From NCBI RefSeq assembly GCF_000422085.1, contig NC_021741.1, positions 496,001 to 560,000 of the forward strand: 64,000 nucleotides of DNA, in the 5' to 3' direction. Source of the stretch: Serratia liquefaciens ATCC 27592 (GTDB lineage Bacteria; Pseudomonadota; Gammaproteobacteria; Enterobacterales; Enterobacteriaceae). Shown piece by piece: positions 6,770 to 49,192 of the stretch. The notes under the pieces are model-generated. The model searched no databases. It saw only the letters and a program-made list of their open reading frames with translations, and was not told the origin of the DNA. Position 1 is the stretch's first letter; each line of letters begins with the position of its first letter. A program made the translations under genes and the position numbers.

Positions 6770-7165
6770 ATGTCATTAGATTCTGCAACCTTCCCACTGG
6801 TCTGGATGCGTCAGCAAGCCGCCGGCGAACCGAAAGATACCCTCGCCGAATTTGCCGAATTCAGCACCTTACTGCAGCGTGAACAGCCGTTTGTGCTGCT
6901 TTGCGATCGTCGTATGGACGAAAGCGGCGAGCAGGATCGCGACGAGCGTACCCAGGTCGCTCTGTGGAAACGCGATCACCGTGAGGCGTTAGCGAAATGG
7001 GTTAAAGGTATGGTGCTGATCGAGCCGGACGACATGCGCCGAAAGGCGGCGGAAGAGTTTGTCGATTTCGCCAGCCGTTTCTGGGGTTATCCGGTGATGG
7101 TGGTGGCCAGTGAGCAACAGGCCCATGAGCTGGCACAACGCCTGCTCGAGCAGCGGGAACAATAA
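6770..7165 (+). CDS. Conserved-looking cytoplasmic protein, unknown function
   Basis: I do not recognise this 131-residue protein. It is soluble and charged, with a hydrophobic strand FVLLCDRRMD followed by helices rich in Arg and Glu (REALAKWVKGMVLI, RRKAAEEFVDFASRFWG) and a second strand VMVVAS. This alternation is reminiscent of SpoIIAA/STAS-like folds, which is only a guess. TTAGGAGA seven bases upstream fixes the ATG at 6770, although the frame stays open further back. It lies 15 bp ahead of the Rob-like regulator and is very likely co-transcribed with it. Confidence 0.7.
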   Translation: MSLDSATFPLVWMRQQAAGEPKDTLAEFAEFSTLLQREQPFVLLCDRRMDESGEQDRDERTQVALWKRDHREALAKWVKGMVLIEPDDMRRKAAEEFVDFASRFWGYPVMVVASEQQAHELAQRLLEQREQ

Positions 7166-7180
7166 TTAAAAGGAAGCGCC

Positions 7181-8059
7181 ATGTATCAGCAACAGGTAAT
7201 TGCGCAACTGCTGGCCTGGATTGAAGCAAACCTCGACCAGCCGCTGACGCTGGACGATATTGCCGCCAAATCCGGCTATTCCAAATGGCATTTGCAGCGG
7301 CTGTTCAAGCAGTTGACCGGCCATATTCTGGGCACTTACGCCCGGCGCAGACGTTTGACCGCCGCCGCGCGTGAGCTGCGGCTCACCCATACCGGCGTGG
7401 CCTGCATTGCCGATAAGTACCAGTTCGATTCCCAGCAGACCTTCACCCGTTGCTTCAAAAAACAGTTCGGTTTGCCGCCGGCCGGCTATCGCCGCAGCGC
7501 GGATTGGTCCAGCCACGGCATGCAGCCGCCGCTGCGGATGGCAGAAGGCCCATTGCCTCAGGGGAGTATTGTCACTCTGCCGGCCATGCAGCTGGTGGGG
7601 CGTACCCAGCGTCGCAGCTGCACTCTGGGGCAAATGCAGCATTCGAAAAATGAGCTGCGCCAGTACGTCTGGAACCAGGTGCTGCAACCCGAAGTCGCGC
7701 CACCGGCGGTAGTCTACGGCCTCACCAGTCTGGAAGCGGACAACCGACAGCTTGATGGTCAACGCATGGCCTATACACTGGCGCTGGCAGATGAACAGGC
7801 CGAAGGGGAGCAGATCCTGATCGAGCAGGGCGATTACGCCAGCTTTACCTATCAGGGGCAGGTCGAAGAGTTGCCAAACTTCGTCGATCGCCTGTACGAC
7901 TCCGCGATGCCCATGATGAAAGCTGTGCGCCGTCCCGGACAGGATATCGAGCGTTTTTACCCGGCACAGGGAGAGGTTTGTAATGCACGCGGTACGGCGA
8001 TCCGCTGTGAATATCTGATCCCGATTCGCCGAACGTCACCGCCGGCCGCTGTGCTTTAA
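7181..8059 (+). CDS. Rob-like AraC/XylS regulator with GyrI-like domain
   Basis: This 292-residue protein resembles E. coli Rob (289 residues). The N-terminal AraC domain (about 1-105) contains LDDIAAKSGYSKWHLQRLFK and the second helix-turn-helix region IADKYQFDSQQTFTRCFKKQFG. The C-terminal half is a GyrI-like small-molecule-binding domain ending GQDIERFYPAQGE and RCEYLIPIRR. Rob and its relatives (MarA, SoxS) activate efflux and stress genes. It may be a paralogue rather than Rob itself, since no creABCD neighbours are present. It shares an operon with the 131-residue protein upstream. Confidence 0.88.
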   Translation: MYQQQVIAQLLAWIEANLDQPLTLDDIAAKSGYSKWHLQRLFKQLTGHILGTYARRRRLTAAARELRLTHTGVACIADKYQFDSQQTFTRCFKKQFGLPPAGYRRSADWSSHGMQPPLRMAEGPLPQGSIVTLPAMQLVGRTQRRSCTLGQMQHSKNELRQYVWNQVLQPEVAPPAVVYGLTSLEADNRQLDGQRMAYTLALADEQAEGEQILIEQGDYASFTYQGQVEELPNFVDRLYDSAMPMMKAVRRPGQDIERFYPAQGEVCNARGTAIRCEYLIPIRRTSPPAAVL

Positions 8060-8230
8060 CGGCAGTTTTCACAGAAAAACCTCTTCGTGCTGCACCAGGT
8101 TACAAAAAAGTTCGATATTGCGCTGGTAATGTTTCACACTTAGGCCGATGTGCACATATAATGCGCATCCGGTCATTTATGGCCGCATAACCTATATTGA
8201 TAACTGCCAGTGGCCACTACCAACACGAAG

Positions 8231-9151
8231 ATGAAAATGAGCATTCGCGCGTTACTAACCCTGTTTACGGCACTGGTGGCTTTCAGCCAGGCTGCCTTCG
8301 CCGTTGTATATCCGTTGCCTGCCAAAGACAGCCGTCTGGTGGGTGAGAACATCCAGATCACCGTACCGGAAGACAGCAAGCTGCCGCTGGAGAGCTTTGC
8401 CGCTCAATACCAGATGGGCCTGAGCAATATGCTGGAAGCCAACCCGGGTGTGGATCCTTTCCTGCCGAAAGCGGGCAGCACTCTGACCATCCCACAGCAG
8501 TTGATCCTGCCGGATGCGCCACGTGAAGGCATCATCATCAACAGCGCCGAGATGCGTCTGTACTACTACCCGAAAGGCACCAACACCGTGATCGTGTTGC
8601 CAATCGGTATCGGCCAGTTGGGCAAAGATACGCCGCTGAACTGGACTACCACCGTGCAGCGCAAGAAAGACGGCCCAACCTGGACGCCAACTGCCAAGAT
8701 GCGTGCGGAATACGCCGCGGACGGCGAGATCCTGCCTGCAGTATTCCCGGCCGGTCCGGACAACCCTATGGGGCTGTACGCGCTGTACGTCGGTCGTCTG
8801 TATGCGATCCACGGTACCAATGCCAACTTCGGTATCGGTCTGCGCGTGAGCCACGGTTGTGTGCGTCTGCGTGCTGACGACATCAAGTTCCTGTTCGAAA
8901 ACGTTCCGGTCGGCACTCGCGTGCAGTTCATCAACGAGCCGATCAAAGCCAGCGTTGAGCCGGACGGTTCTCGTTACATTGAAGTGCACAACCCACTCTC
9001 TGCTAACGAAGAACAGCTGAAGTCCAAAGATCCGGTGCCGTTGACCATCTCTGCGCCAGTGGGCAAAGTGATGATGGACCCGGCGGTTAACCAGAGCGAA
9101 GTGGACGCAGCAATCAAAGCCCGTTCCGGTATGCCGGTTAAAGTGAACTGA
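8231..9151 (+). CDS. ldtB: L,D-transpeptidase LdtB (YbiS/ErfK family)
   Basis: The periplasmic L,D-transpeptidase attaches Braun lipoprotein to meso-diaminopimelate of peptidoglycan. Starting at the ATG at 8231 the protein is 306 residues, exactly the length of E. coli LdtB; an in-frame GTG at 8210 would add seven residues. It has a signal peptide to about residue 24, a LysM-like domain ([20 protein letters not shown]) and the YkuD catalytic domain with [15 protein letters not shown] and SHGCVRLR, whose cysteine (about residue 210) is the nucleophile. It closely matches YbiS, more than ErfK or YcfS. A strong terminator follows. Confidence 0.93.
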
Positions 9152-9171
9152 TTGATTCAGTCGCTGTAGAA

Positions 9172-9197
9172 AAGGCGCCTTAGGGCGCCTTTTTTTA
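9172..9197 (+). terminator. Rho-independent terminator of ldtB
   Basis: AAGGCGCC / GGCGCCTT stem with loop TTAG followed by a run of T residues, 20 bp after the ldtB stop. Confidence 0.93.
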
Positions 9198-9657
9198 TGG
9201 CTAAATAACACCGTTTTGCGCAGGCCTCCGCAGTTCTTTGCTTTTCGTTACCGCTGCCGCTTTAAAGGTCCGGTACTGTTAGCAAAAAACAGATTTTCTC
9301 GTTGCCTTAAACGGGCATCGCGAAGCTGTAGGTGGGCCAAATTGCGACAGGAAACTGTCGGGAGGCCCGTCGCTGAAACTTCTTTCTCTGGTGCAAAAAT
9401 ACGGCCTGAAGATCTTGCTGTAGAGTGTCAGAATAATCACAGCTTATCTGCCTATGCATCACCGCTATAAGTCCTTCCTGATAATTATTCCTCAAAAAAT
9501 CATCGTTAATTAATTGGTTATATATCCCCTCCGACCAGTGATTGCCTGAGAAAAAACTCTCAAAACCTCTGTGTTGTGAAAATAAGATCACACAAACGTA
9601 ACAAAAGATAAACATAGGCTCTCTATATTGGCTGCTTTGCTTTTGGGAGGGAGTGCC
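9198..9657. other. Long intergenic leader ahead of the exbD operon
   Basis: No credible gene is seen in this 460-bp gap. At 9334-9368 there is a two-tier hairpin: outer arms GGGCC/GGCCC, inner arms CGACAG/CTGTCG, closed by a GAAA tetraloop, with no T-run. From about 9420 the sequence becomes AT-rich, as expected for a promoter. A partial Fur-like half-site TGATAATTATT occurs at 9479-9489. An inverted repeat TTGTGA...TCACA at 9574-9592 has the wrong spacing for CRP. Confidence 0.4.
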
Positions 9658-10065
9658 ATGCGTAACTGGAACGAGCCGAAAAAGAACAAAGCGCACATCG
9701 AACTGATCCCGATGATCGACGTGATGATGTTTTTGCTGGTGTTTTTTGTGTTGATTAGCCTGAACGTGATCCCGGCCCTTGGGCTGAAGACTCAGTTGCC
9801 GTCCGCCGGCAGCGCTCAGCAATTGAAGCCGCAGAAGAAGGCGATCATTACCCTGGGCGCTGAGGAACAACTGCAGCTCGACGGCCAGCCGATAGCGCTG
9901 AGCGCGCTGGTCAGCACGCTGAAGCAGCAGCAGCAGGAAAACCAGACCACCACCATTATCGTTAATAGCGACAAAGGCGTTGCGGTAGAGCGCCTGGTCG
10001 CGGTGATGGATAACCTGCGCCAGGGCGGTTTCTTCTCCGTCTCCATCGCCACACGGAAGCTGTGA
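9658..10065 (+). CDS. ExbD/TolR-family inner-membrane protein
   Basis: This 135-residue ExbD-type protein would pair with an ExbB channel to couple proton entry to TonB. It has a short cytoplasmic start, one membrane segment with the conserved aspartate (IELIPMIDVMMFLLVFFVLISL, Asp about residue 21) and a periplasmic domain with VNSDKGVAVERLVAVMDNLRQGGF. The ATG at 9658 is preceded by GGGAGGG, which favours it over an upstream in-frame start. It opens the operon exbD-tonB-receptor-exbB-PLD, with one base between its stop and the tonB start. Confidence 0.9.
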   Translation: MRNWNEPKKNKAHIELIPMIDVMMFLLVFFVLISLNVIPALGLKTQLPSAGSAQQLKPQKKAIITLGAEEQLQLDGQPIALSALVSTLKQQQQENQTTTIIVNSDKGVAVERLVAVMDNLRQGGFFSVSIATRKL

Positions 10066-10066
10066 C

Positions 10067-10819
10067 ATGTATCTGCTCTATCGCTCACGTCACCTTTTCA
10101 GCTGGTTGCCGGCGCTGATCGTCGCGGGCTGCGTGCTGTTCGCCAGCCAACAGGCGGCGCTGAAAATTCAGCCGCGCTATGACGAAACCGCCATGGAGCT
10201 GGCATTGGTCGAGCCGGAACCTCAGCCACAGCCGGAACCGGAGGCGCCGGTGGAAACCCCGCCGCAACCCGAGCCACCGCCGCCGGAACCTGAGCCCCTT
10301 CCTGAACCTGTGGTGCCTGCACCTGAACCGATTGTCGAGGCCAAACCGGTGCCCAAGCCACAGCCGAAACCCAAACCCAAGCCGGTGAAAGAGAAAGCCA
10401 AGCCGGTGGAAAAGGCCAGGCCCGCCGCGGTGCCGGCAGCGCCGAGAACCTTGGTCAGCAAGCCCGCCGCACAGCCCGTTCCGCCGGCTCCAGCGGCACC
10501 GAAGGTGAATGCGCAGGCAATCGAAAACGGTTATCTGCAGGCATTGCGCCATGAGCTGGAGCAGCGCAAGCGCTATCCCAGCGGGCGGCAGGCTTCGCTT
10601 GAACGGCCGCAGGGCAACGTCGAGGTGTGGCTGGAGGTAGATCGCAGCGGTCGGGTGATCTCTTCCGGCATCACCAATAAGGCCTCCAGCATGCTGCTCA
10701 ACCGTGCGGCGCTGAGCAGTTTGCAAAGTATCAGCCAGGTGAAGCCGTTCCCAACTGAGGCTTTCAACGGGCAAACAACCAAAAGATTTTCAGCCACGTT
10801 CAATTATCAGGCGCCTTGA
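10067..10819 (+). CDS. TonB-family energy transducer
   Basis: This 250-residue TonB paralogue has one N-terminal membrane anchor (LFSWLPALIVAGCVLFAS, about 11-28). A long Pro-Glu then Pro-Lys spacer covers roughly residues 48-145, built to span the periplasm. The C-terminal TonB domain is about 155-250 (YLQALRHELEQRKRYPS, GNVEVWLEVDRSGRV). It begins one base after exbD stops and precedes a receptor gene, so it probably serves that receptor rather than replacing the chromosomal tonB. The repetitive Pro-Glu/Pro-Lys stretch generates spurious ORFs on both strands. Confidence 0.9.
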   Translation: MYLLYRSRHLFSWLPALIVAGCVLFASQQAALKIQPRYDETAMELALVEPEPQPQPEPEAPVETPPQPEPPPPEPEPLPEPVVPAPEPIVEAKPVPKPQPKPKPKPVKEKAKPVEKARPAAVPAAPRTLVSKPAAQPVPPAPAAPKVNAQAIENGYLQALRHELEQRKRYPSGRQASLERPQGNVEVWLEVDRSGRVISSGITNKASSMLLNRAALSSLQSISQVKPFPTEAFNGQTTKRFSATFNYQAP

Positions 10820-10858
10820 TGCCTGGCATAACAGTTTGATTTTTATGGGATGGAAACA

Positions 10859-13099
10859 ATGAAATCTTTCAATCGATCTGGGATTTATCTGGCAGTGATG
10901 TCGGCGATGTTACCGGGTGCCGTGCTGGCGGCGGACTCGACCGACGTCGGCACCATCAACGTTAAGGGGCAGTCGCTGGGCGGCGGCATGATGGTGCAGG
11001 AGGACAGCGCCAAGTCGCGTTCCACCATCACCAAAGAGGCGATGGATAAAATGCCAGCGGCGGCCAACGCCATCGACAAGCTGAAATACACGCCGGGCCT
11101 GAACGTCAACAGCGACGATGCCAGCGGTCTGAGCGGCGTTGATTACACCATGCGCGGTATGAGCTCCGATCAAATCGGCCTGTCGATGGACGGGATCCCG
11201 ATCAACGATTCCGGCAACTATGCGGTTTACCCGAACCTGCTGGGTGATTCAGAGAACCTGGGGGAAGTGTTCGTCACCCAGGGATCCTCGGAAGCCGACG
11301 GCCCGCACATCGGCTCCAGCGGCGGCAATATTGGCCTGGTGACGCGGCGTCCGTCTAAAGACTTCGGCGGCTTCGTCAAACAGACGCTGGGCAGCAACAA
11401 CCTGAGCAAAACCTTTGCCCGTCTGGAGACCGGTGAGTACAACGGCTTCAGCAACTGGATTTCCTATTCGCACACCGAGGCCAAAAAGTGGCGCGGGGAA
11501 GGGCGCTTGTACTCCAACAAGTTCGAGATGAACTCGTTGTATGAGGACGGTAACGGCAACAGCAGCAACCTGATCATGAAGTACAACCAGCAAAATAACG
11601 TCAACTACAACACCCGCAGCAAGGCTCAGTTCGCGGAAGACCCCCGTGGCGATTATGACACCACGCCGTCCTACAATAACCGGGGCCAGCTGACTCGCTA
11701 TTACAAGCTCAACCGTAATCCGTTCGAGAATTTCAACCTGACGTTCACCCAGAAGCTGCAGCTGCGCGACAACCTGGCGTTAACCCTGCAACCCTATTAC
11801 TACTGGGGGAACGGCGGCAGCTTCAGCGGCCAGAGCGCGTCGGTACTGTCCAGTACCTCGGATCGGGCCGGTCAGTATGACCTCAGCAACTTGCAGTCCA
11901 ACACCTATTACCGTCCTTCCTGGACCCAGACCTGGCGGCCGGGTATCACCACCAAGCTGAAGTGGGACATCAACGATCAGCACAGCCTGGATATCGGCTA
12001 CTGGTTTGAACGTGCGCGTCAGTCGCAGACCCAGCCGTTTATCGGCATCAAGGACGACGGCAACCCGCAGCAGCTCTCGGGTAAACCGGGCGGTTCCGAT
12101 CAGGTGAAGGACGCCAACGGCAAAACCGTGCAGGGGCGTAACCAGTACACCATTACCCCGGCGCAAAAAGTGTGGCTGCAGGACACCTGGTTCGCGACGC
12201 CGGACTGGACCTTCGTCGGTGGGCTGGCCTATCAGTACGTTGAACGAAAAGGCGATAACAAGGGCAGCCTGTATAACGTGCCGGAAAAGCGTGATGCCAA
12301 ATACCATGAATTTCTGCCGAACTTCAGCGCCAGCTACAAGCTGAACCCGGAAAACCAGGTGTTCTATAACCTGACACGCAACATGCGCACCCCGCCAAAC
12401 TACGTGTTGTACAACGTCGGCGATTCGCTTAGCACCAAGCCTGAACTGAGCTGGAACCATGAGCTGGGCTGGCGTTTCGAGCGTGAAGATATGCTGCTGA
12501 GCGCCTCGCTGTTCTACTTGCGCTACAGCGACCGTCAAATCTCTACCACCAATCCGGACGGTGACTACGAGATGATGAACATCGGCAACGTAGAGAACAA
12601 AGGGCTGGAACTGGAGTGGAGCGGCCAACTGCCGCATAACTTCAACTACTACACCTCGTACACCTATACCGAGTCCAAGCAGAAGAGCGACATTGTCAGC
12701 AACGGCGGCCTGCCGCTGCCGACCAGCGGTAAAGAAGTGCCGAACGTGCCGAAAAACCTGCTTAACGTGACCCTGGGTTATGACGACGGTTTGTATTACA
12801 GCAGCGTGAGCGGCAAGTACGTCAGTTCGTTCTACGGCGACCTGACCAATGACGAGAAGATTGGCGGCCGGACGGTATTCGATCTGGCGGCGGGGGTGCA
12901 TTTGCCGGTGGACAAGAAGATCGTCAAGAGCGCGGCGCTCCGCTTCGGCATCAGCAACCTGTTTGACAAGGAGTACCTGACTTCGGTGCGCTCCACCACC
13001 TTCAACGCCGCACCTTATAACGGCGTAAGGGCCAGCACGCCTTACTACAACGTCGGGGAAGAACGTACCTTCAGCGTATCGCTGGAAGCCACCTTTTAA
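10859..13099 (+). CDS. TonB-dependent outer-membrane receptor
   Basis: This receptor of about 746 residues has a signal peptide ending at AVLAADS, a TonB-box-like stretch after it (STDVGTINVKG), a plug domain (KEAMDKMPAAANAIDKLKYTPGLNV, VDYTMRGMSSDQIGLSMDGIPIND, SSGGNIGLVTRRPS) and a beta-barrel ending VSLEATF. GGGA eight bases upstream favours the ATG at 10859 over the one at 10850. The ligand is unknown: it shows no recognisable siderophore, haem or B12 signature. Its neighbours are a dedicated ExbD, TonB, ExbB and a secreted phospholipase D-like protein. A Fur site was not evident. Confidence 0.9.
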   Translation: MKSFNRSGIYLAVMSAMLPGAVLAADSTDVGTINVKGQSLGGGMMVQEDSAKSRSTITKEAMDKMPAAANAIDKLKYTPGLNVNSDDASGLSGVDYTMRGMSSDQIGLSMDGIPINDSGNYAVYPNLLGDSENLGEVFVTQGSSEADGPHIGSSGGNIGLVTRRPSKDFGGFVKQTLGSNNLSKTFARLETGEYNGFSNWISYSHTEAKKWRGEGRLYSNKFEMNSLYEDGNGNSSNLIMKYNQQNNVNYNTRSKAQFAEDPRGDYDTTPSYNNRGQLTRYYKLNRNPFENFNLTFTQKLQLRDNLALTLQPYYYWGNGGSFSGQSASVLSSTSDRAGQYDLSNLQSNTYYRPSWTQTWRPGITTKLKWDINDQHSLDIGYWFERARQSQTQPFIGIKDDGNPQQLSGKPGGSDQVKDANGKTVQGRNQYTITPAQKVWLQDTWFATPDWTFVGGLAYQYVERKGDNKGSLYNVPEKRDAKYHEFLPNFSASYKLNPENQVFYNLTRNMRTPPNYVLYNVGDSLSTKPELSWNHELGWRFEREDMLLSASLFYLRYSDRQISTTNPDGDYEMMNIGNVENKGLELEWSGQLPHNFNYYTSYTYTESKQKSDIVSNGGLPLPTSGKEVPNVPKNLLNVTLGYDDGLYYSSVSGKYVSSFYGDLTNDEKIGGRTVFDLAAGVHLPVDKKIVKSAALRFGISNLFDKEYLTSVRSTTFNAAPYNGVRASTPYYNVGEERTFSVSLEATF

Positions 13100-13104
13100 C
13101 TATT

Positions 13105-13226
13105 TATACCCTATGGCTTTCAAGTTGCAGCCAGGCGGCCAACTCGCTCATCCCCAGGCGCTTACTTAAGTAACTGGGGTGAGCGAGTGCAGGTAACAAC
13201 GCTGCGGCTTGAAAGACGACGGGTAA
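13105..13226. repeat. ERIC element inside the TonB operon
   Basis: This imperfect palindrome of about 122 bp has ERIC ends (TACCCTATGGCTTTCAAG on the left, CTTGAAAGACGACGGGTA on the right). Its core holds CCCCAG...CTTACTTAAGTAACTGGGG and the GGGGTGAGCG block used in ERIC typing. It fills the gap between the receptor stop and the exbB ribosome-binding region, so it would be transcribed as a stem-loop between the two genes. Confidence 0.9.
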
Positions 13227-13238
13227 GAGGACTGAACG

Positions 13239-13889
13239 ATGAATGCCAATCTGTTACACGACATTATTTTCTACGTGATGTACGCCGCGCTGGCGATTGC
13301 ACTGGTGATCATTATCGAACGTGCGTTGTATTTCGCCTATACCCAACGCCAGGCGCGTCGACTGGAGCAGGCGCTGACGTTGGATGTGCACCGCACGGCC
13401 GATCTGCCGGATGAGTTGACCCAGCGCAACAGCCTGCCGCTGGCGGTGATTTCACCGGTGCTGGAGCAAAAACACCGTGCCGGTGACCGCGAGGCGATCG
13501 GTGATTTGATCGACGCTCAGTATTTGTTGAGCAAGCCGCTGATGGCGCGGGGCCTGTGGTTGCTGGAAACTATCGTTACCGCGGCACCGCTGTTGGGGCT
13601 GCTGGGCACGGTGATGGGGATTATCGAAACCTTTAAGGCACTGGCTGCCTCGGGAGTGTCCGAGCCGAGCCTGGTTTCTGCCGGGATGGGCACCGCGCTG
13701 TACGCTACCGGACTGGGTATCGCCATCGCGCTGCTGTGCCTGGTGGGGAACAACTATCTGCAAAGCCGTATGGAGCGCATTAACGAACTGTTGAAGGTGC
13801 TGCTGATCCGCGCCGGTGCGCCGGGCAGCCGCCCGGAAAACGGCAGCCGCGAGCAACGGGTTGACAGCGAGGTGCCGCGCTATGCCTAA
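13239..13889 (+). CDS. ExbB/MotA/TolQ-family proton channel protein
   Basis: This 216-residue protein shows the three membrane segments of ExbB: about 10-30 (IFYVMYAALAIALVIIIE), about 103-130 (LWLLETIVTAAPLLGLLGTVMGIIETF, the signature helix) and about 145-170 (GMGTALYATGLGIAIALLCLVG). It would form the channel with ExbD encoded 3 kb upstream. Separation of exbB from exbD by tonB, the receptor and an ERIC element is unusual. Its stop overlaps the start of the phospholipase D-like gene by 8 bp, implying translational coupling. Confidence 0.92.
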   Translation: MNANLLHDIIFYVMYAALAIALVIIIERALYFAYTQRQARRLEQALTLDVHRTADLPDELTQRNSLPLAVISPVLEQKHRAGDREAIGDLIDAQYLLSKPLMARGLWLLETIVTAAPLLGLLGTVMGIIETFKALAASGVSEPSLVSAGMGTALYATGLGIAIALLCLVGNNYLQSRMERINELLKVLLIRAGAPGSRPENGSREQRVDSEVPRYA

Positions 13890-15135
13890 TGGCCGTCATT
13901 CACGGTGGCCATTAGGCCGCCTTTACACTGCGTTATGGGGTGGTTGCCTGTTGATGTTGAGCCAGAATGCGGCGGCGCGCTTTGAAATTCCCGGCTACGA
14001 GCTGGTGTATACCGCACCGGTAGAAACCGCGTTGCAGGCGGATGACCTGCGCAACACTGCCGAAGTGTGGCAGCAGATGTTTGATGCGGCGAAAACCCGC
14101 ATCGATCTGGGCCAGTTCTACGTGGCGAACCAACAGGGTTCGCTGCTGGATGGCGTGCTGCAGCATCTTAAAGCGGCGGGGGAACGTGGGGTAAAAATTC
14201 GTTTCCTGATGGAGGAGAAGGGCATCCGCATTTCTACTCCCGAAACGCTGGAACAGCTTAAGGCGATCCCGAATCTGGAGCTGCGTATCATCCCTTACCA
14301 GCGGCTGAGCGGCGGCATTCTGCATGCCAAATACCTGCTGGTGGACGGTGAACAGGCGTTTGTCGGCAGTCAGAACTTTGACTGGCGCGCGCTGGCGCAC
14401 ATCCATGAAACCGGGCTGCGCATCAGCGATGCCAGTGTGGTGCGGCAGATCCAGGCGATCTTCGAACAGGACTGGCAGGCGCAGGCGTTGCTGGCGGCGG
14501 AAAAACCGGTGCCCCAGCTGACGTCCCAACCCACGGTAGAACCGCTGCAGAGCAATTACCTGGTCGCCAGCCCGCGTGCCTACAACCCGGCGGGCGTGAT
14601 TGATTCGCAGCTTGAGCTGCCGCGCCTGTTGGCTTCGGCCAGGCAGCGAGTGCGGGTACAGGTGATGGACTACGCGCCGTTGTCTTTTGGCCCGGACCGC
14701 ACCCGGCCTTACTATGCGGTGATCGATAACGCCCTGCGCAGCGCTGCCGCGCGCGGTGTGCAGATTGAGCTGATGGTCGCTAACTGGAATACCAAAAAGC
14801 CGGATATCGCCTGGCTGAAAAGCCTGGCGCTGGTGCCGAATGTACAGGTGAAAGTGGTCACCATACCGCCGGCAAGCAGCGGGTTTATCCCGTTTGCCCG
14901 GGTGATCCACAGTAAAATCATGACCATCGACGGCGAGATCGCCTGGGTAGGCACCAGCAACTGGACCGGCGGCTATCTGGACAATTCTCGTAATCTGGAG
15001 ATTGTGCTGCACGACGTGAACATGAGCCAGCGGCTGGACAAGCTGTACAGCCAACTGTGGGACAGCCTTTACGCCGAACCGCTGAAACTGGATTACGACT
15101 ACCCGACGCCCAAACCGGGCGGCGAATCTCAATAG
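13882..15135 (+). CDS. Secreted phospholipase D-like protein with two HKD motifs
   Basis: This 417-residue protein has an N-terminal signal-like segment (about 12-32, ending AAARFE) and two PLD catalytic motifs: HAKYLLVDG at 148 and HSKIMTIDG at 343, each followed by GSQNFDW or GTSNWTGG. The layout matches the PLD/cardiolipin-synthase superfamily, whose members cleave or transfer phosphodiester head groups. The signal-like start suggests the periplasm or outside. The ATG lies within the exbB stop region (8-bp overlap), so it belongs to the TonB-system operon. That link suggests release of an uptake substrate from a phosphodiester, but this is inference. Confidence 0.88.
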   Translation: MPNGRHSRWPLGRLYTALWGGCLLMLSQNAAARFEIPGYELVYTAPVETALQADDLRNTAEVWQQMFDAAKTRIDLGQFYVANQQGSLLDGVLQHLKAAGERGVKIRFLMEEKGIRISTPETLEQLKAIPNLELRIIPYQRLSGGILHAKYLLVDGEQAFVGSQNFDWRALAHIHETGLRISDASVVRQIQAIFEQDWQAQALLAAEKPVPQLTSQPTVEPLQSNYLVASPRAYNPAGVIDSQLELPRLLASARQRVRVQVMDYAPLSFGPDRTRPYYAVIDNALRSAAARGVQIELMVANWNTKKPDIAWLKSLALVPNVQVKVVTIPPASSGFIPFARVIHSKIMTIDGEIAWVGTSNWTGGYLDNSRNLEIVLHDVNMSQRLDKLYSQLWDSLYAEPLKLDYDYPTPKPGGESQ

Positions 15136-15156
15136 TGTGAAATAGCGTGGTGGTTA

Positions 15157-16239
15157 TTATTTATCGTTGGATGACGTTTCACATTTCTGCTCTTTAAAGG
15201 AAAGGGTGTTATCGCCAAAATAAGCAACGGAGACCACCCCTTTTTCCAATTCAGCGACTGTCGCTTCAGGGGGAAGATTATTACATTGGTAGTTGGGGTG
15301 ATAATGAAGCTCAACAAGGAATTTTTTTGCGATAAGACTGAGGGTTGGTGAGCTGATGTCATAAGTACTTTGCATGCCTATGACCATTAAAGAAGCCAGT
15401 ATGAGAGGCGCCGCTATGCGCGGCAGCATGATGAGCTTTTTCACTTCTAACTCTTTGTTCGCATCGGGTGAGAGATGTTTCTTCCCGGTAATAAGACGCT
15501 GCGCCGTGCGTTTAATAAAGTTCGGTGCAAATATTTGCAGCGGCATGGTGACGAACATTGGAATGAGAATGGCTAACCATTCCAATACGGCCATTGTGAT
15601 AACGCATAGTAGGATGATGCTCAAGTAAGCGATGGGTGTATACAGGGTCGCGACTATCGTGGTCATTTCCGGGAAAAAACGCGCGTTAGTGTGGGTGAGT
15701 TCTGTTAGCCAACTCTTTGACATGGCAGTTGAAATGTAAAAGGCCAACGTTCCTATACCGGCTAGCAGGACTTTTCCTGCCAATCTTGCCCAGGTTTTTC
15801 TTATCACCCATTCACACCTGGATTTTAAATCTAACAGGGCTGCGAACGCATAGATCCCAATGCTGATCTGTAACATCAGCAGGCTTTGAGCGTTAATCAG
15901 GAAAGCGTAGGGAATTTGCAAGGTAATGAGAAATGTGGCGACATAAAGCAGGAACTCTGTCGCAAGCGATAGCTTATAAAATTGCCGGGTGTTGATCACT
16001 AAACGCCAATAGCGTCTGATTAGCTTTTTTTTGATTGTGGGAAACAGAGCAACGGTTCTAAGCAACAATAAGGTCGGCATCGCCATAAGCAAGCACAGGG
16101 TTATGGCATAAATAATATAATTTTTGTTGTAGAGAAATAGCGCGAAGAAGACCAGTAAAACGCTTACCACAAATTGGATGCGTCGTTTCCCCGGGGGGAT
16201 CCTATTTAATATGGATTTGAGCGAGAGGCGGCTCATCAT
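15157..16239 (-). CDS. AT-rich orphan integral membrane protein
   Basis: I do not recognise this protein of about 360 residues. Hydrophobic segments occur near residues 22-42, 45-65, 95-140 (two), 160-180, 200-235 (two) and 275-295. A polar C-terminal tail of about 60 residues with two cysteines (QCNNLPPE, EQKCETSS) is probably periplasmic. AAGGA lies just before ATGATG at 16239. An in-frame TTG at 16257 is less likely. Base composition is visibly more AT-rich than all neighbours, which suggests horizontal acquisition. It converges on the phospholipase D-like gene and stands alone. Confidence 0.65.
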   Translation of the reverse strand: MMSRLSLKSILNRIPPGKRRIQFVVSVLLVFFALFLYNKNYIIYAITLCLLMAMPTLLLLRTVALFPTIKKKLIRRYWRLVINTRQFYKLSLATEFLLYVATFLITLQIPYAFLINAQSLLMLQISIGIYAFAALLDLKSRCEWVIRKTWARLAGKVLLAGIGTLAFYISTAMSKSWLTELTHTNARFFPEMTTIVATLYTPIAYLSIILLCVITMAVLEWLAILIPMFVTMPLQIFAPNFIKRTAQRLITGKKHLSPDANKELEVKKLIMLPRIAAPLILASLMVIGMQSTYDISSPTLSLIAKKFLVELHYHPNYQCNNLPPEATVAELEKGVVSVAYFGDNTLSFKEQKCETSSNDK

Positions 16240-16321
16240 TAATTCCTTGAGAATCAAAAAATGGACGCCGCCCAGAGTAGCATTTTTTAGTCTGTCCTCA
16301 TAACCAGAGCAGACATTGAAA

Positions 16322-17428
16322 TTATTTCCGCCAGCCGCTTTTTTCCAGTGCCGTCAGCAACTGTTCGGCGCTCAGTCCCTCCGCCCGATGGCCATTACCG
16401 GAAACGGTATTGGCGGCCAGCAGGGCATTGATAATCGCCTCTTCCACCGCTTCTGCCGCTGCGGCAAACAGCTCGGAGATGTAATCGTTGTTCACCATGC
16501 GCAGCGGGGTGGTAAAGGCACCTTTGTTGGCGTAGTCGGCAGGGGGGAGGCCGTCATTGCCGGTGGCGAAGGCGATAAAAATGTCGCCGCTCGAGTCTTC
16601 GGTACCGCCGCCGGTGCGGGCAATGCCGATGCTGGCGCGTTGTGCCAGACGGGCGCATTGGTGCGGCAACAGCGGGGCGTCGGTGGCCAGGGTGACGACG
16701 ATCGACCCCATTCCCGGGTGCGGCAGCTGCGGTGTAAACGGCGAGTGAATATGTGCCAAATGACGGCCCACCGGATAACCGCCCACCAGCAGCGACGCGC
16801 GTTTGCCGTGGTTGGCTTGCACGATGGCACCGACCGTCCAGCCACCGCGATCGGCAGGCAGGCGGCGCGAAGCGGTGCCGATGCCGCCCTTGAACTCATG
16901 GCAGATCATGCCGCTGCCGCCACCGACGGCACCTTCCTGGGGTAATCCTTCGTGTGCCGCCTGCAGTGCTTGCCGCACATGTTCAGGCTTGACGTGAAAA
17001 CCGTTGATGTCGTTGAGCAGGCCATCGAAGGTTTCCATTACCACCGGCATATTCCAGTACACCGCGTCGTCGGCCGGCAGCGCTTCACGTTCCAGCGCGA
17101 TCAGGCTGTCACGTACCACGCCGACGCTGTGGGTGTTGGTGAAGGCGATTGGGCTGGTGAGCAGGCCGGCTTCGCGGATCCACTCCAGCCCGGTGGCGTC
17201 GCCATTGCCGTTAAGCACATGTACGCCGGCAAAGCAGGGGGATTGCCGGGCCTGGCCGGCACGCGGTTCGATCACCGTGACGCCGGTACGCACGCTGCGC
17301 CCGTCGGGCAAATCGGCGTGGATGCTGGCGTGGCCGACGCGAACGCCGGGCACGTCGGTGATGGCGTTCAGCGGGCCGGCAACGCCGTGGCCGATTTTAA
17401 TGCCCAAATCCTGAGCGCGCTGCGACAT
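16322..17428 (-). CDS. P1-family (DmpA/BapA-type) aminopeptidase
   Basis: This 368-residue family S58/P1 hydrolase is made as a precursor that cleaves itself into two subunits. The expected site is Gly241-Ser242 in HPGMGSIVVTLATDAPLL, where the new N-terminal Ser is the nucleophile. Other family marks are TDVPGVRVGHA near residue 24, VLNGNGDATGLEWIREAG and GGGSGMICHEFKGGIGT near 169. Known members release N-terminal D-residues (DmpA) or beta-amino acids such as beta-alanine (BapA). It lies 2 bp behind an APC permease, near an omega-amino-acid aminotransferase and a semialdehyde dehydrogenase, which favours a beta-aminopeptidase role (inference). Confidence 0.9.
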   Translation of the reverse strand: MSQRAQDLGIKIGHGVAGPLNAITDVPGVRVGHASIHADLPDGRSVRTGVTVIEPRAGQARQSPCFAGVHVLNGNGDATGLEWIREAGLLTSPIAFTNTHSVGVVRDSLIALEREALPADDAVYWNMPVVMETFDGLLNDINGFHVKPEHVRQALQAAHEGLPQEGAVGGGSGMICHEFKGGIGTASRRLPADRGGWTVGAIVQANHGKRASLLVGGYPVGRHLAHIHSPFTPQLPHPGMGSIVVTLATDAPLLPHQCARLAQRASIGIARTGGGTEDSSGDIFIAFATGNDGLPPADYANKGAFTTPLRMVNNDYISELFAAAAEAVEEAIINALLAANTVSGNGHRAEGLSAEQLLTALEKSGWRK

Positions 17429-17430
17429 GG

Positions 17431-18807
17431 TTATTCTCCTTCAATTGAGGGTTCAACGTGCGGGATAGCCTGCCGGGTGCGCATATAGCTCAGCAGCAGG
17501 CCAAAGCAGAGGATACCGGCAATGATAATAAAGTCTTTCAGGCTGCTGGCGATCAAAATTGTCCATAACACATACAGGCAGCCGATCAGCGCGATCGCCA
17601 CCGGCAGCGGCCACAGCGGCATCAGATACGGGTGGTGGAAACGTACGCGGCGGCGACTGATCAGCGCGGCGACGGCCATGATGATGTACACCAGCAGCAG
17701 CAGGATCACGGTAAATGAGGTCAGATCGCCGAGGTTGGAGCAAAAGGCCAACAGCGCCGAGGGAATACCGAACAGCAGAGTGGCAATCCACGGCGTGCCG
17801 AAACGCGGATGGATGATTTTCAGCGCCCGGTTCACCTGCGGCAGCCAAAAACCGTCACGCCCGCTGGAGAACATCATGCGGCTAAACTGCGCCACGATGG
17901 CGATAATGGCGTTGAACACCGACAGGTAAATCGCGCCGCTGACCACCCGCGCCAGCGTCGGCCCACCCAGTTGGCTGACCACGTAGCCGACCGGATCGGC
18001 CTGTTTGGCCATTTCCGCCAGGGACGGCGCGCCAATCAGCAAAGCGGTGAAGGGCAGCAGCTCGACCAGTACCACGATCGCCAACGTCAGCATGATGGCG
18101 GTGGCCATGGGTTTGCCCTGCTCGCGCATGTCCTCCGCCATATACACCGCGGCACCGTAGCCGTTATAGGAAAACAGCGCGACGCCGACCATAGCGACGA
18201 TCAGCGGTACGGAAACCGGTGCCAACACACCTTCGGGGTTTAGCATCACCGGCGCGACGAGGATGTCCGCACTTTGGTGCGGGGTGCTAAAGCCCAACCA
18301 GGCGATTAGCCCCAGCACCGCGATTTCAACCACCAAAAAGGTGCCGGTCAGCAGCGCATTGGCCTTGATGTTGAAAATGGCGCAGGCTCCGCCGATCAAG
18401 ATGGTGATCATCCCGGCGGTAGAGGCGTCGAACTGAGTCCCCAGCGCGGTGTTCAAATAAGGCACGGCACCGGTGGCCAGCACCGCCGGTACAAACAGCG
18501 CGGCACTGAGAATAAACAGGTAAGTTTGCAGCCCGCACAGGGTGCCGAACAGGCGTTTGATAATGCTGTATTCGCCCCCGGCGCTGGGATGCGCCGCACC
18601 GAGTTCGGCGTAGCACAGGGCAATAGTGGCGGCGATAAAGGCAGCGATCAGAAATGAGATAAAGGCACCGCTACCGGCGCTGGCGATCGCCAGCGGAGCA
18701 ATAACGAAAATTGAGCTGGCGGGCGTGACGCCGGAGGCGGTAATCATCACCACGTCGAGGACGCTGAGATTACCTTTGAATTTGTGTTCTGGTGTGGGCT
18801 CAGTCAT
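17431..18807 (-). CDS. APC-superfamily amino acid permease
   Basis: This 458-residue protein is predicted to have about 12 membrane segments. The first carries the APC signature (SVLDVVMITASGVTPASSIFVIAPL), and SAGGEYSIIKRLFG and SYNGYGAAVYMAEDM are further landmarks of amino acid/polyamine transporters. GGAG precedes the ATG. It is followed after 2 bp by the P1 peptidase gene, so uptake and hydrolysis or amino acid use are coupled. The hairpin at 18920-18939 separates it partly from the upstream dehydrogenase gene. Confidence 0.88.
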   Translation of the reverse strand: MTEPTPEHKFKGNLSVLDVVMITASGVTPASSIFVIAPLAIASAGSGAFISFLIAAFIAATIALCYAELGAAHPSAGGEYSIIKRLFGTLCGLQTYLFILSAALFVPAVLATGAVPYLNTALGTQFDASTAGMITILIGGACAIFNIKANALLTGTFLVVEIAVLGLIAWLGFSTPHQSADILVAPVMLNPEGVLAPVSVPLIVAMVGVALFSYNGYGAAVYMAEDMREQGKPMATAIMLTLAIVVLVELLPFTALLIGAPSLAEMAKQADPVGYVVSQLGGPTLARVVSGAIYLSVFNAIIAIVAQFSRMMFSSGRDGFWLPQVNRALKIIHPRFGTPWIATLLFGIPSALLAFCSNLGDLTSFTVILLLLVYIIMAVAALISRRRVRFHHPYLMPLWPLPVAIALIGCLYVLWTILIASSLKDFIIIAGILCFGLLLSYMRTRQAIPHVEPSIEGE

Positions 18808-45692: not shown

Positions 45693-47255
45693 ATGAAACC
45701 TGAAGACTTTCGTGCTGACAACAAACGCCCGTTCACCGGTGCCGAATACCTGAAAAGTTTGCAGGACGGCCGTGAGATTTATATCTACGGCGAACGAGTG
45801 AAAGATGTCACCACTCACCCGGCATTCCGTAATGCAGCGGCTTCGGTCGGTCAACTGTACGACGCGCTGCACGATCCGGTCAGCCAGGATCGCCTGTGCT
45901 GGAACACCGATACCGGCAACGGCGGTTACACTCACAAATTCTTCCGCTACGCCCGCAGCCCGGAAGAGATGCGTCAGCAGCGTGATGCTATCGCCGACTG
46001 GTCGCGCCAGAGTTACGGTTGGATGGGGCGCACCCCGGACTACAAAGCAGCCTTCGGGTGTGCGCTGGGGGCTTATCCCGAGTTTTATGGTCAGTTCGCC
46101 GATAACGCGCGCCACTGGTACAAACGCATTCAGGAAACCGGCCTGTACTTTAACCACGCTATCGTTAACCCACCGATTGACCGCCACAAGCCGGTCAACG
46201 AAGTGAAAGACGTTTACATTCAGGTGGAGAAAGAGACCGACGCGGGCATTATCGTCAGCGGGGCCAAGGTGGTGGCAACCAACTCGGCGCTGACCCACTA
46301 TAACTTTATCGGTTTTGGTTCTGCCCAGGTGATGGGGGATAACCCGGACTTCGCGTTGATGTTTGTGGCGCCGATGGATGCCGAAGGGGTGAAGCTGATT
46401 TCTCGCGCCTCTTATGAGCTGGTGGCGGGCGCAACGGGATCCCCGTTCGATTATCCGCTTTCGAGCCGTTTCGATGAGAACGATGCGATCCTGATTATGG
46501 ATCATGTGCTGATCCCGTGGGAAAACGTGCTGATCTACCGCGATTTCGATCGTTGTCGTCGCTGGAGTACGCAAGGGGGCTTCGCTCGTCTGTTCCCGCT
46601 GCAGGCCTGTGTGCGCCTGGCGGTGAAGATGGACTTTATCACCGCGCTGCTGCAAAAAAGCCTGTCCTGTACCGGCGTGCTGGAGTTCCGTGGCGTACAG
46701 GCCGATCTTGGCGAAGTAGTGGCCTGGCGCAATATGTTCTGGTCACTGAGCGATGCGATGTGCGCCGAGGCCACCCAATGGGAAAACGGCGCTTATCTGC
46801 CGGATTCCACCGCGATGCAAACTTACCGCGTGATGGCACCAATGGCCTACACCAAGGTGAAGCACATTATCGAAAAGAACGTCACCAGCGGTTTGATTTA
46901 TCTGCCGTCCAGCGTGCGCGACATGAATAACCCGGAGATCGATAAATACCTGGCGCGTTACGTGCGCGGATCCGACGGTATGGATCACGTTGAACGCATC
47001 AAGATCCTCAAGCTGATGTGGGATGCGATCGGCAGCGAATTCGGCGGTCGCCACGAGCTGTATGAGATCAACTACGCCGGCAGCCAGGATGAGATCCGCC
47101 TGCAGTGTCTGCGCAACGCACAGGGATCCGGCGCCATGAACCAGATGATGGAGATGGTCGACAAATGCCTGTCCGACTACGACCAGCACGGTTGGAAAGT
47201 GCCGCATCTGCATAATAATGGTGACATTAATCAGCTGGATAACTTGCTCAAGTGA
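45693..47255 (+). CDS. hpaB: 4-hydroxyphenylacetate 3-monooxygenase, oxygenase component
   Basis: This 520-residue FADH2-using oxygenase adds an ortho hydroxyl to 4-hydroxyphenylacetate to give homoprotocatechuate. It has the same length and sequence style as E. coli HpaB: MKPEDFRADNKRPFTGAEYL, NGGYTHKFFRYARSPEEM, VSGAKVVATNSALTHYNF and AGATGSPFDYPLSSRFDEND. GAGGAAG precedes the ATG. It forms a pair with hpaC and supplies the substrate of HpaD. Confidence 0.96.
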   Translation: MKPEDFRADNKRPFTGAEYLKSLQDGREIYIYGERVKDVTTHPAFRNAAASVGQLYDALHDPVSQDRLCWNTDTGNGGYTHKFFRYARSPEEMRQQRDAIADWSRQSYGWMGRTPDYKAAFGCALGAYPEFYGQFADNARHWYKRIQETGLYFNHAIVNPPIDRHKPVNEVKDVYIQVEKETDAGIIVSGAKVVATNSALTHYNFIGFGSAQVMGDNPDFALMFVAPMDAEGVKLISRASYELVAGATGSPFDYPLSSRFDENDAILIMDHVLIPWENVLIYRDFDRCRRWSTQGGFARLFPLQACVRLAVKMDFITALLQKSLSCTGVLEFRGVQADLGEVVAWRNMFWSLSDAMCAEATQWENGAYLPDSTAMQTYRVMAPMAYTKVKHIIEKNVTSGLIYLPSSVRDMNNPEIDKYLARYVRGSDGMDHVERIKILKLMWDAIGSEFGGRHELYEINYAGSQDEIRLQCLRNAQGSGAMNQMMEMVDKCLSDYDQHGWKVPHLHNNGDINQLDNLLK

Positions 47256-49007: not shown

Positions 49008-49192
49008 TATACCCGTCGTCTTTCAAGCCGCAGCGTTCAAATCCGTTTCCGACAGATTTGTCACTCATCCCAGTTACTGTAGGGGGCGAATATATTCGCC
49101 CCGATTAATGCGGGCGCAGCATGCGGCGCCTCTACAAAAGCTGGGGATGAGCGATCAGGTCGCCTAGCTGCAACTTGAAAGCCATAGGGTGC
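49008..49192. repeat. ERIC element carrying a nested 59-bp insertion
   Basis: ERIC ends TACCCGTCGTCTTTCAAG (left) and CTTGAAAGCCATAGGGTGCA (right) enclose 185 bp. Removing the 59-bp insertion at 49078-49136 leaves 126 bp, the usual ERIC size. The insertion sits in the central loop, between the two arms of the CCCAG/CTGGG stem. The rest of the gap to 49295 shows nothing else. Confidence 0.88.
49078..49136. mobile_element. 59-bp nested miniature element
   Basis: The ends TGTAG and CTACA are complementary (TGTAGGGGGCG versus TGTAGAGGCGC on the other strand). Inside is a perfect 20-bp palindrome GGGGCGAATATATTCGCCCC (49083-49102), then a GC-rich second hairpin. It is too short to code and looks like a miniature inverted-repeat insertion. 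Confidence 0.6.

Follow-up and report, generated by a model that had tools for sequence, protein, structure and literature searches.

The window analyzed here is a 64,000-nt stretch of Serratia liquefaciens ATCC 27592 (contig NC_021741.1, positions 496,001-560,000), and it contains an operon of five genes for ExbD, TonB, a TonB-dependent receptor, ExbB and an exported phosphodiesterase with two HKD motifs, referred to below as PLD after its annotation as phospholipase D. The coordinates of the operon and its associated elements are compiled in Table 1; Pfam and NCBIfam matches were judged against curated cut-offs. A first-pass annotation of this DNA had described the same five genes in the same order with a PLD start that overlaps the exbB stop, and both observations are borne out by our analysis. 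The ExbB, ExbD, TonB and receptor domains all exceed their Pfam cut-offs and thus provide the complete domain set of a TonB-ExbB-ExbD transport system, the TonB_C match being only narrowly above its cut-off (27.2 vs. 24.6 bits). The genes are separated by 1 bp (exbD-tonB), 30 bp (tonB-receptor) and 139 bp (receptor-exbB), with an alternative ATG start of the receptor at 10859, and the ATG of PLD (13882) overlaps the exbB stop codon (13887-13889) by 8 bp.

Table 1. Genes and sequence elements of the TonB-PLD operon (positions within the window).
Feature	Position	Strand	Description
Promoter region	9568..9656	+	AT-rich element GTAACAAAAGATAAACA followed by a TATATT -10-like box; upstream regions compared by eye
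exbD	9658..10065	+	Open reading frame, 135 aa, first gene of the operon; PF02472 114.6 bits (cut-off 25.4)
tonB	10067..10819	+	Open reading frame, 250 aa, Pro-rich energy transducer; PF03544 27.2 bits (cut-off 24.6), TIGR01352 27.7 bits (cut-off 27.1)
TonB-dependent receptor	10850..13099	+	749 aa; PF00593 154.9 bits, PF07715 48.5 bits
Palindromic repeat, ERIC-like	13104..13227	.	Within the operon, between receptor and exbB
exbB	13239..13889	+	216 aa, proton channel; PF01618 (MotA_ExbB) 91.7 bits
PLD	13882..15135	+	417 aa, exported PLD3/PLD4-like two-HKD phosphodiesterase; PF13091 (PLDc_2) 133.4 bits in two stretches

Conservation of the five-gene unit

A contig scan with PLD retrieved 70 named loci with a relative of this protein, and 40 of them harbor all five genes in the same order. 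These loci belong to Serratia (14), Erwinia, Superficieibacter, Klebsiella, Pantoea, Entomohabitans, Symbiopectobacterium, Chimaeribacter, Pectobacterium, Pseudomonas, Sapientia, Solimicrobium and Herbaspirillum. Pandoraea (L071) possesses all five genes with the TonB genes on the opposite strand, one locus (L033) lacks the receptor, and 26 loci (20 from Janthinobacterium and six others) contain PLD without exbB-exbD-tonB in the stretch available. The 8-bp overlap of exbB and PLD is present in 30 of the 42 loci in which both genes could be read, namely, the intact Enterobacterales loci; the other twelve comprise eight from Pseudomonas, three from Burkholderiales and the decayed locus L069. The shared order of 40 loci together with the overlap in 30 documents that the operon is not a chance arrangement. 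Degenerate and plasmid-borne versions were also encountered: the operon of a Symbiopectobacterium endosymbiont has decayed with several broken frames (L069 4802-10187), that of Chimaeribacter californicus is reduced to PLD and remnants (L028 8573-10257), and C. arupi carries the five-gene operon on a 353-kb plasmid (L147 3893-9260).

Within the genus Serratia a close PLD is present in 26 of 30 genomes, our strain included, and is adjoined by the receptor and exbB in all 26; the four genomes without it are small (1.5-3.6 Mb). Among 398 randomly chosen genomes of Pseudomonadota the receptor (E <= 1e-60) was found in eleven. Five of these receptors score above 900 bits, each with PLD at a distance of no more than 1 kb, that of genome G438 (362 bits) lies 2.5 kb from PLD, and the remaining five are genomes of an alphaproteobacterial type (six hits) with no PLD beside the receptor. 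In 247 random genomes of the order the receptor was detected in four and PLD is adjacent in three. The fourth, G095, harbors exbD-tonB-receptor-exbB followed by an M1 peptidase of the leukotriene-A4-hydrolase type (L105 4921-11012), with PLD about 2 Mb away. The linkage of PLD to the TonB set proposed in the first-pass annotation, which an absent or distant PLD would contradict, therefore stands for the close receptors and weakens with distance: only 17 of 41 more distant receptors from one family of Burkholderiales have PLD within 3 kb. In the reverse direction it is weaker, since PLD is located apart from a receptor of this clade in five of eight PLD-containing genomes of the order sample and in five of eleven of the phylum sample (near in the other six).

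The exported phosphodiesterase and the receptor

PLD is the orthologue of a crystallized "phospholipase D" of S. plymuthica AS9 (PDB 7E0M; 798.6 bits over residues 32-416), and its nearest named relative stems from an S. liquefaciens metagenome-assembled genome (96%). The closest solved proteins after 7E0M are the 5'-exonucleases PLD3 (7.8e-35) and PLD4 (5e-33), with 123.5 bits over 344 residues, and further matches comprise a viral nicking-joining enzyme (2e-30) and a poxvirus envelope phospholipase (5e-12). Among the solved PLD enzymes of other groups, PLD3 and PLD4 are hence the nearest. We aligned 83 distinct bacterial PLD rows with the active-site residues named for PLD3 (PMC10783504). 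The first HKD motif is intact in 82 rows, with a gap in the decayed L069, and the second in all 83; apart from the missing first motif of L069 the His, Lys and Asn of both motifs are kept. The column of PLD3 Tyr411, which according to that study stacks on the bound base, holds an aromatic residue, Phe or Tyr, in each of the 83 rows. The Glu that turns the second motif of PLD3 into HKE is replaced by Asp in every row, at a position that, by the same account, is 20 A away from the active site. The Introduction, Results and Discussion of the 7E0M paper (PMC8004604) present the structure without activity data; three features, namely the GS motif, a short loop and another loop with positive charge, are compared there with nucleases, and the charged loop is described as unsuitable for acyl chains. 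Judged by homology and active-site residues, PLD is more likely a nuclease than a phospholipase.

The near-identical S. plymuthica protein has a predicted signal peptide of 32 residues, and a lipobox-like motif is found in none of the 80 (of 83) PLD rows long enough to be judged, which argues for export of PLD. The earlier designation as a "secreted" enzyme is thereby supported as far as export is concerned. Membership in the anti-phage system DISARM was considered and rejected, because the DrmC model NF038319 reaches 96.8 of the required 133 bits; no search for other DISARM genes was made among the neighbors. The DrmC models of PADLOC, which carry no cut-off, match at up to 80.8 bits. A plasmid origin was likewise set aside, given that only five of 72,556 plasmid records contain a PLD relative (E <= 1e-40), all of them predicted to be non-mobilizable.

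The receptor matches 17 NCBIfam models and reaches the cut-off of none, the siderophore-receptor model TIGR01783 with 141.9 of 223.5 bits included. In a phylogenetic tree with nine E. coli receptors as the only named references it belongs to a separate clade of 24 rows with maximal support (100/100) and a long branch (1.07), which excludes FhuA, FepA, CirA, Fiu, FhuE and PqqU. Of the named receptors, those of the FecA group come nearest as a sister (98/85) without being closely related, and the phylogenetic placement asked for in the first-pass annotation accordingly locates the receptor outside the siderophore receptors tested. A blastn search of the E. coli collection with the receptor gene gave no match. 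The AlphaFold model (pLDDT 83.1) is most similar to the fold of PqqU, with many other receptors within 1-3 Z units of it, and the Z scores of the 50 entries listed range between 38.1 and 32.0; given this narrow spread, the fold does not discriminate between ligands.

Upstream of exbD the element GTAACAAAAGATAAACA in front of the TATATT box is conserved with some variation among Serratia, Klebsiella, Erwinia and Chimaeribacter, as judged by eye. The absence of a Fur box noted in the first reading holds in a crude consensus scan, which revealed no Fur-like site: the mean best mismatch was 7.60 in 15 Serratia upstream regions vs. 7.85 in shuffled ones. In a comparison of 15 regulator consensus patterns with shuffles of five groups of upstream regions, the largest departures in Serratia were an inverted pair of PhoP-like half-sites (mean 2.13 vs. 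3.78 mismatches; 2.00 vs. 3.38 in Klebsiella/Erwinia) and, roughly 230 bp upstream, a PhoB-like site (3.73 vs. 5.20). Smaller departures of the TyrR, NagC, ArgR and CytR patterns occurred in single groups. All these signals are inflated by the kinship of the sequences within each group, and no regulator is named here.

Neighboring genes of the relatives and the proposed function

A clue to the function of the operon comes from the genes that adjoin the relatives of its receptor and PLD, many of which belong to nucleotide and nucleoside metabolism. In all 20 Janthinobacterium loci PLD is located between a 5'-nucleotidase and an S1/P1 nuclease, accompanied by adenosine-deaminase-type and guanine-deaminase-type genes and a receptor that belongs to the clade of the window in two loci (L051, L054) and to another family in 18; ABC-transporter and DeoR-type genes follow downstream in most, not all, of them (assignment by phmmer against the genes of L044, on which Pfam was run). 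All eight Pseudomonas loci have a PhoD phosphatase gene near PLD (Pfam on L033), in L034 with an acetyltransferase-type gene in between.

Further evidence comes from 41 receptor genes that match the G438 receptor at E <= 1e-90. They occur in 37 out of 145 genomes of a single family, taken to belong to Burkholderiales, and their neighbors were identified with Pfam for a subset and with phmmer against those proteins for the rest, including some partial genes. A 5'-nucleotidase lies directly beside 25 of the receptors or is separated from them by exbB only, and a nucleotide or nucleoside gene of some kind is found near 31. The six additional receptors have an S1/P1 nuclease (one), a nucleoside hydrolase and a purine-type permease (two), a class-II cAMP phosphodiesterase (one) or, past exbB, a Bmp-type (PnrA-like) ABC transporter together with a GntR-type gene (two). 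Eight receptors have PLD beside them and none of the nucleotide genes, one of these (G690) with a CpdB-like gene further upstream, G631 shows no nucleotide gene before the contig end, and the contig of G707 ends inside exbB and does not allow a judgment. Locus L191 additionally harbors a NupC-type nucleoside transporter and a cytidine deaminase. The order exbD-tonB-receptor-exbB-5'-nucleotidase-PLD is realized in G438, G636 and G698, and partial reads and spacing agree with it in G764, G751, G723 and G738. A loosely defined lipobox-like motif is present in 17 of the 18 nucleotidases checked. Since eight genomes counted contain only zero to three nucleotidase genes of PF02872 each, the association is, judged without a formal test, far above random placement. 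Second, paralogous receptors in G649 (L198 5769-10144, with exbD-tonB-exbB) and G438 (L207 6475-8979) adjoin a purine-type permease and a nucleoside hydrolase.

With modest confidence, we lean toward a self-contained TonB system that feeds on nucleic-acid-derived material, i.e., oligonucleotides, nucleotides or nucleosides, and in which PLD would serve as an exported 5'-exonuclease. Extracellular nucleic acid would first be cut by general nucleases, for which the genome provides one PF01223 gene, and the receptor, powered by the ExbB-ExbD-TonB complex of the operon itself, may then import fragments or nucleotides that are too large or too scarce for porins. The exported PLD, whose most likely location is the periplasm, would trim the incoming oligonucleotides from the 5' end to mononucleotides; general nucleotidases (three PF02872 genes in this genome) could release nucleosides and phosphate, and nucleoside carriers would finish the pathway. 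In some Burkholderiales relatives the dephosphorylation step would be performed by the 5'-nucleotidase inside the operon. The scavenging role of a dedicated energizer coupled to a phosphodiesterase, which was the core of the first-pass annotation, is supported by these data. A more far-reaching version, which is possible and for now rather doubtful, sees here the first recognized family of TonB-dependent transporters for nucleic-acid fragments: a dedicated TonB-ExbBD would pump short oligonucleotides through the outer membrane, a periplasmic PLD3/PLD4 homologue would trim them, and individual lineages would swap or add a 5'-nucleotidase or an S1/P1 nuclease.

Several observations weigh against a nucleic-acid diet. 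In the Serratia loci, and in most of the Enterobacterales loci examined, no nucleotide gene was found to adjoin the operon; three Klebsiella loci have a ushA-type gene, which is two genes away and presumably ancestral at this place, given the gene order of E. coli. Other enzymes occur in comparable positions: the four TonB genes of G095 stand with the M1 peptidase and without PLD, an M20 peptidase follows PLD in L035 (Pseudomonas) and G538, a prolyl oligopeptidase adjoins it in Sphingomonas, a phytase-like esterase follows it in L026 (Pectobacterium) and G160, and an AMP-binding gene of the acyl-CoA-ligase type precedes a stand-alone PLD in three genomes of one genus (G050, G095, G129). These neighbors keep a lipid, a phytate-like compound or a cofactor in play as substrate. 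Moreover, the nucleotide-linked betaproteobacterial receptors join the alphaproteobacterial ones (99/91) before the gammaproteobacterial subclade of the window, so that the specificity could have changed in between. Three of the four alphaproteobacterial receptors are preceded by a thiamin pyrophosphate (TPP) riboswitch (L118 10548-10645, L119 11332-11427, L121 8389-8496), two of them (L118, L119) are adjoined by an NMT1/THI5-type binding protein, and they likely represent a receptor family for thiamin or hydroxymethylpyrimidine (HMP). The fourth (L120) is adjoined by a siderophore-interacting-protein gene.

The most obvious competitor is the scavenging of phospholipids or glycerophosphodiesters, in which the exported PLD would release headgroups or phosphatidate and a product of this cleavage would enter through the receptor. 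It agrees with the name under which the enzyme was annotated and crystallized, with the acyl-CoA-ligase-type genes mentioned above and with a PF04185 gene next to PLD in L062 and L115, a family that also includes phospholipases C; PLD3-type proteins have lipid-linked roles as well. The first-pass annotation had suggested a lipid or another phosphodiester, and a lipid as the most likely substrate is not supported. The kinship with PLD3 and PLD4, the conserved active site and its base-stacking aromatic residue weaken the proposal, as do the loop that the authors of 7E0M regarded as unsuited to acyl chains (PMC8004604, sections named above) and the nucleotidases, S1/P1 nucleases, deaminases and nucleoside transporters that adjoin the relatives of receptor and PLD. 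We consider the scavenging of lipids or glycerophosphodiesters unlikely. Uptake of thiamin, thiamin phosphate or another nucleotide-like cofactor, with PLD opening a phosphodiester (e.g., of a dinucleotide cofactor) before or after transport, would be in keeping with the riboswitches and NMT1/THI5-type proteins of the alphaproteobacterial relatives, and the top-ranked fold is that of the cofactor importer PqqU, albeit with the many near-equal receptors noted above. It appears quite improbable: no TPP riboswitch was detected in positions 7000-17500 of the window (E <= 0.1), and none surpassed the gathering score in L113 and L191 of Burkholderiales, thiamin genes as such not having been searched for; the Burkholderiales relatives harbor nucleotidase and purine-salvage-type genes.

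Uptake of a ferric siderophore or of haem, with PLD as an incidental companion, would be in line with the weak TIGR01783 match, the sister position of the FecA group, the gene beside L120 and the automatic Gene Ontology (GO) label "siderophore transport" on the Chimaeribacter orthologue. The separate receptor clade, the failure of all 17 NCBIfam models to reach their cut-offs and the lack of a Fur-like site in the consensus scan led us to set iron aside as very improbable, no search for siderophore genes having been made next to the Burkholderiales receptors; the window contains no sign of it, in agreement with the earlier suspicion that iron may not be the target. Uptake of nucleic-acid-derived material remains the reading that we prefer.

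Apart from its genes, the operon contains the ERIC-like palindromic repeat in the receptor-exbB gap. The gap (13100-13238) has a predicted RNA fold of -67.4 kcal/mol (z -7.14), one arm of the repeat recurs at 49167-49181, and Rfam yielded for this region only a sub-threshold V_AS5 match (31.5 of 96 bits). On one side the operon is flanked by a gene for an L,D-transpeptidase (8210-9151), on the other by a convergent gene (15157-16257) whose 366-aa product matches neither a Pfam nor an NCBIfam model at E <= 0.001; a relative of the latter gene occurs at the same place only in L016 among 14 other named Serratia loci. Elsewhere in the window, a gene of the serine beta-lactamase family (PF00144; 47829-48968, minus strand) is located near a 4-hydroxyphenylacetate hydroxylase gene (45693-47255).

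Significance and comparison with known systems

Soil, plants and animals hold large amounts of phosphorus and nitrogen in the form of nucleic acids, and TonB systems with their own energizer are already known. To our knowledge, the passage of larger nucleic-acid fragments across the Gram-negative outer membrane is poorly explained. If our proposal is correct, it would provide a receptor family, an energizer and a processing enzyme for the uptake of such fragments, all of them open to testing. It would also place the solved and so far unexplained structure 7E0M in a physiological setting, give the lysosomal nucleases PLD3 and PLD4 bacterial relatives in a feeding system, and correct the annotations "phospholipase D" and "siderophore transport" in many genomes of Enterobacterales and Pseudomonas. 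Already established are the structure of PLD and, as described in PMC8289736, the clustering of genes for nucleases, nucleotidases and nucleobase transport in bacteria that degrade DNA. Neither a TonB receptor for nucleotides nor this operon is reported in the titles and opening abstract lines of the papers retrieved from the open-licence literature, a corpus that mostly excludes subscription journals.

The PqqU/YncD and FecA transporters share 17-20% identity with the receptor of the window, and many other receptors score almost as high. They use the housekeeping TonB and are not known to be associated with a PLD. The orthologue SpPLD of S. plymuthica AS9 (PDB 7E0M, PMC8004604) has a similar signal peptide and the same two HKD motifs; it was described by itself, as a phospholipase D with a proposed role in plant protection, and the three sections of that paper named above make no mention of its TonB operon. 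With lysosomal PLD3 and PLD4 the enzyme shares the two-HKD single chain, the GSxN and GxSN motifs and the aromatic residue before the second HKD, whereas it is bacterial, predicted to be exported via a signal peptide, of HKD instead of HKE type and encoded in a TonB operon. Neither Serratia nor 7E0M occurs in the main text of two PLD3 structure papers (PMC10783504, PMC11653685). Phosphate-starvation proteomics of Pseudomonas reported PhoD, whose gene lies near PLD in this genus, under Pi depletion, and TonB does not occur in the main text of these studies (PMC5082522, PMC5438359).

The gene clusters for foraging on extracellular DNA resemble the neighborhoods described here in the co-localization of nuclease genes with those for breakdown to nucleosides, phosphate removal and the transport of nucleobases and phosphate, but the terms TonB and "outer membrane" are absent from the main text of PMC8289736, while our operon centers on the outer-membrane step. 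Finally, the TPP-riboswitch-linked receptors of Alphaproteobacteria fall into the same clade of 24 rows. They are accompanied by the riboswitch, and in two cases by an NMT1 partner, whereas the receptor of the window shares its operon with exbBD, tonB and PLD.

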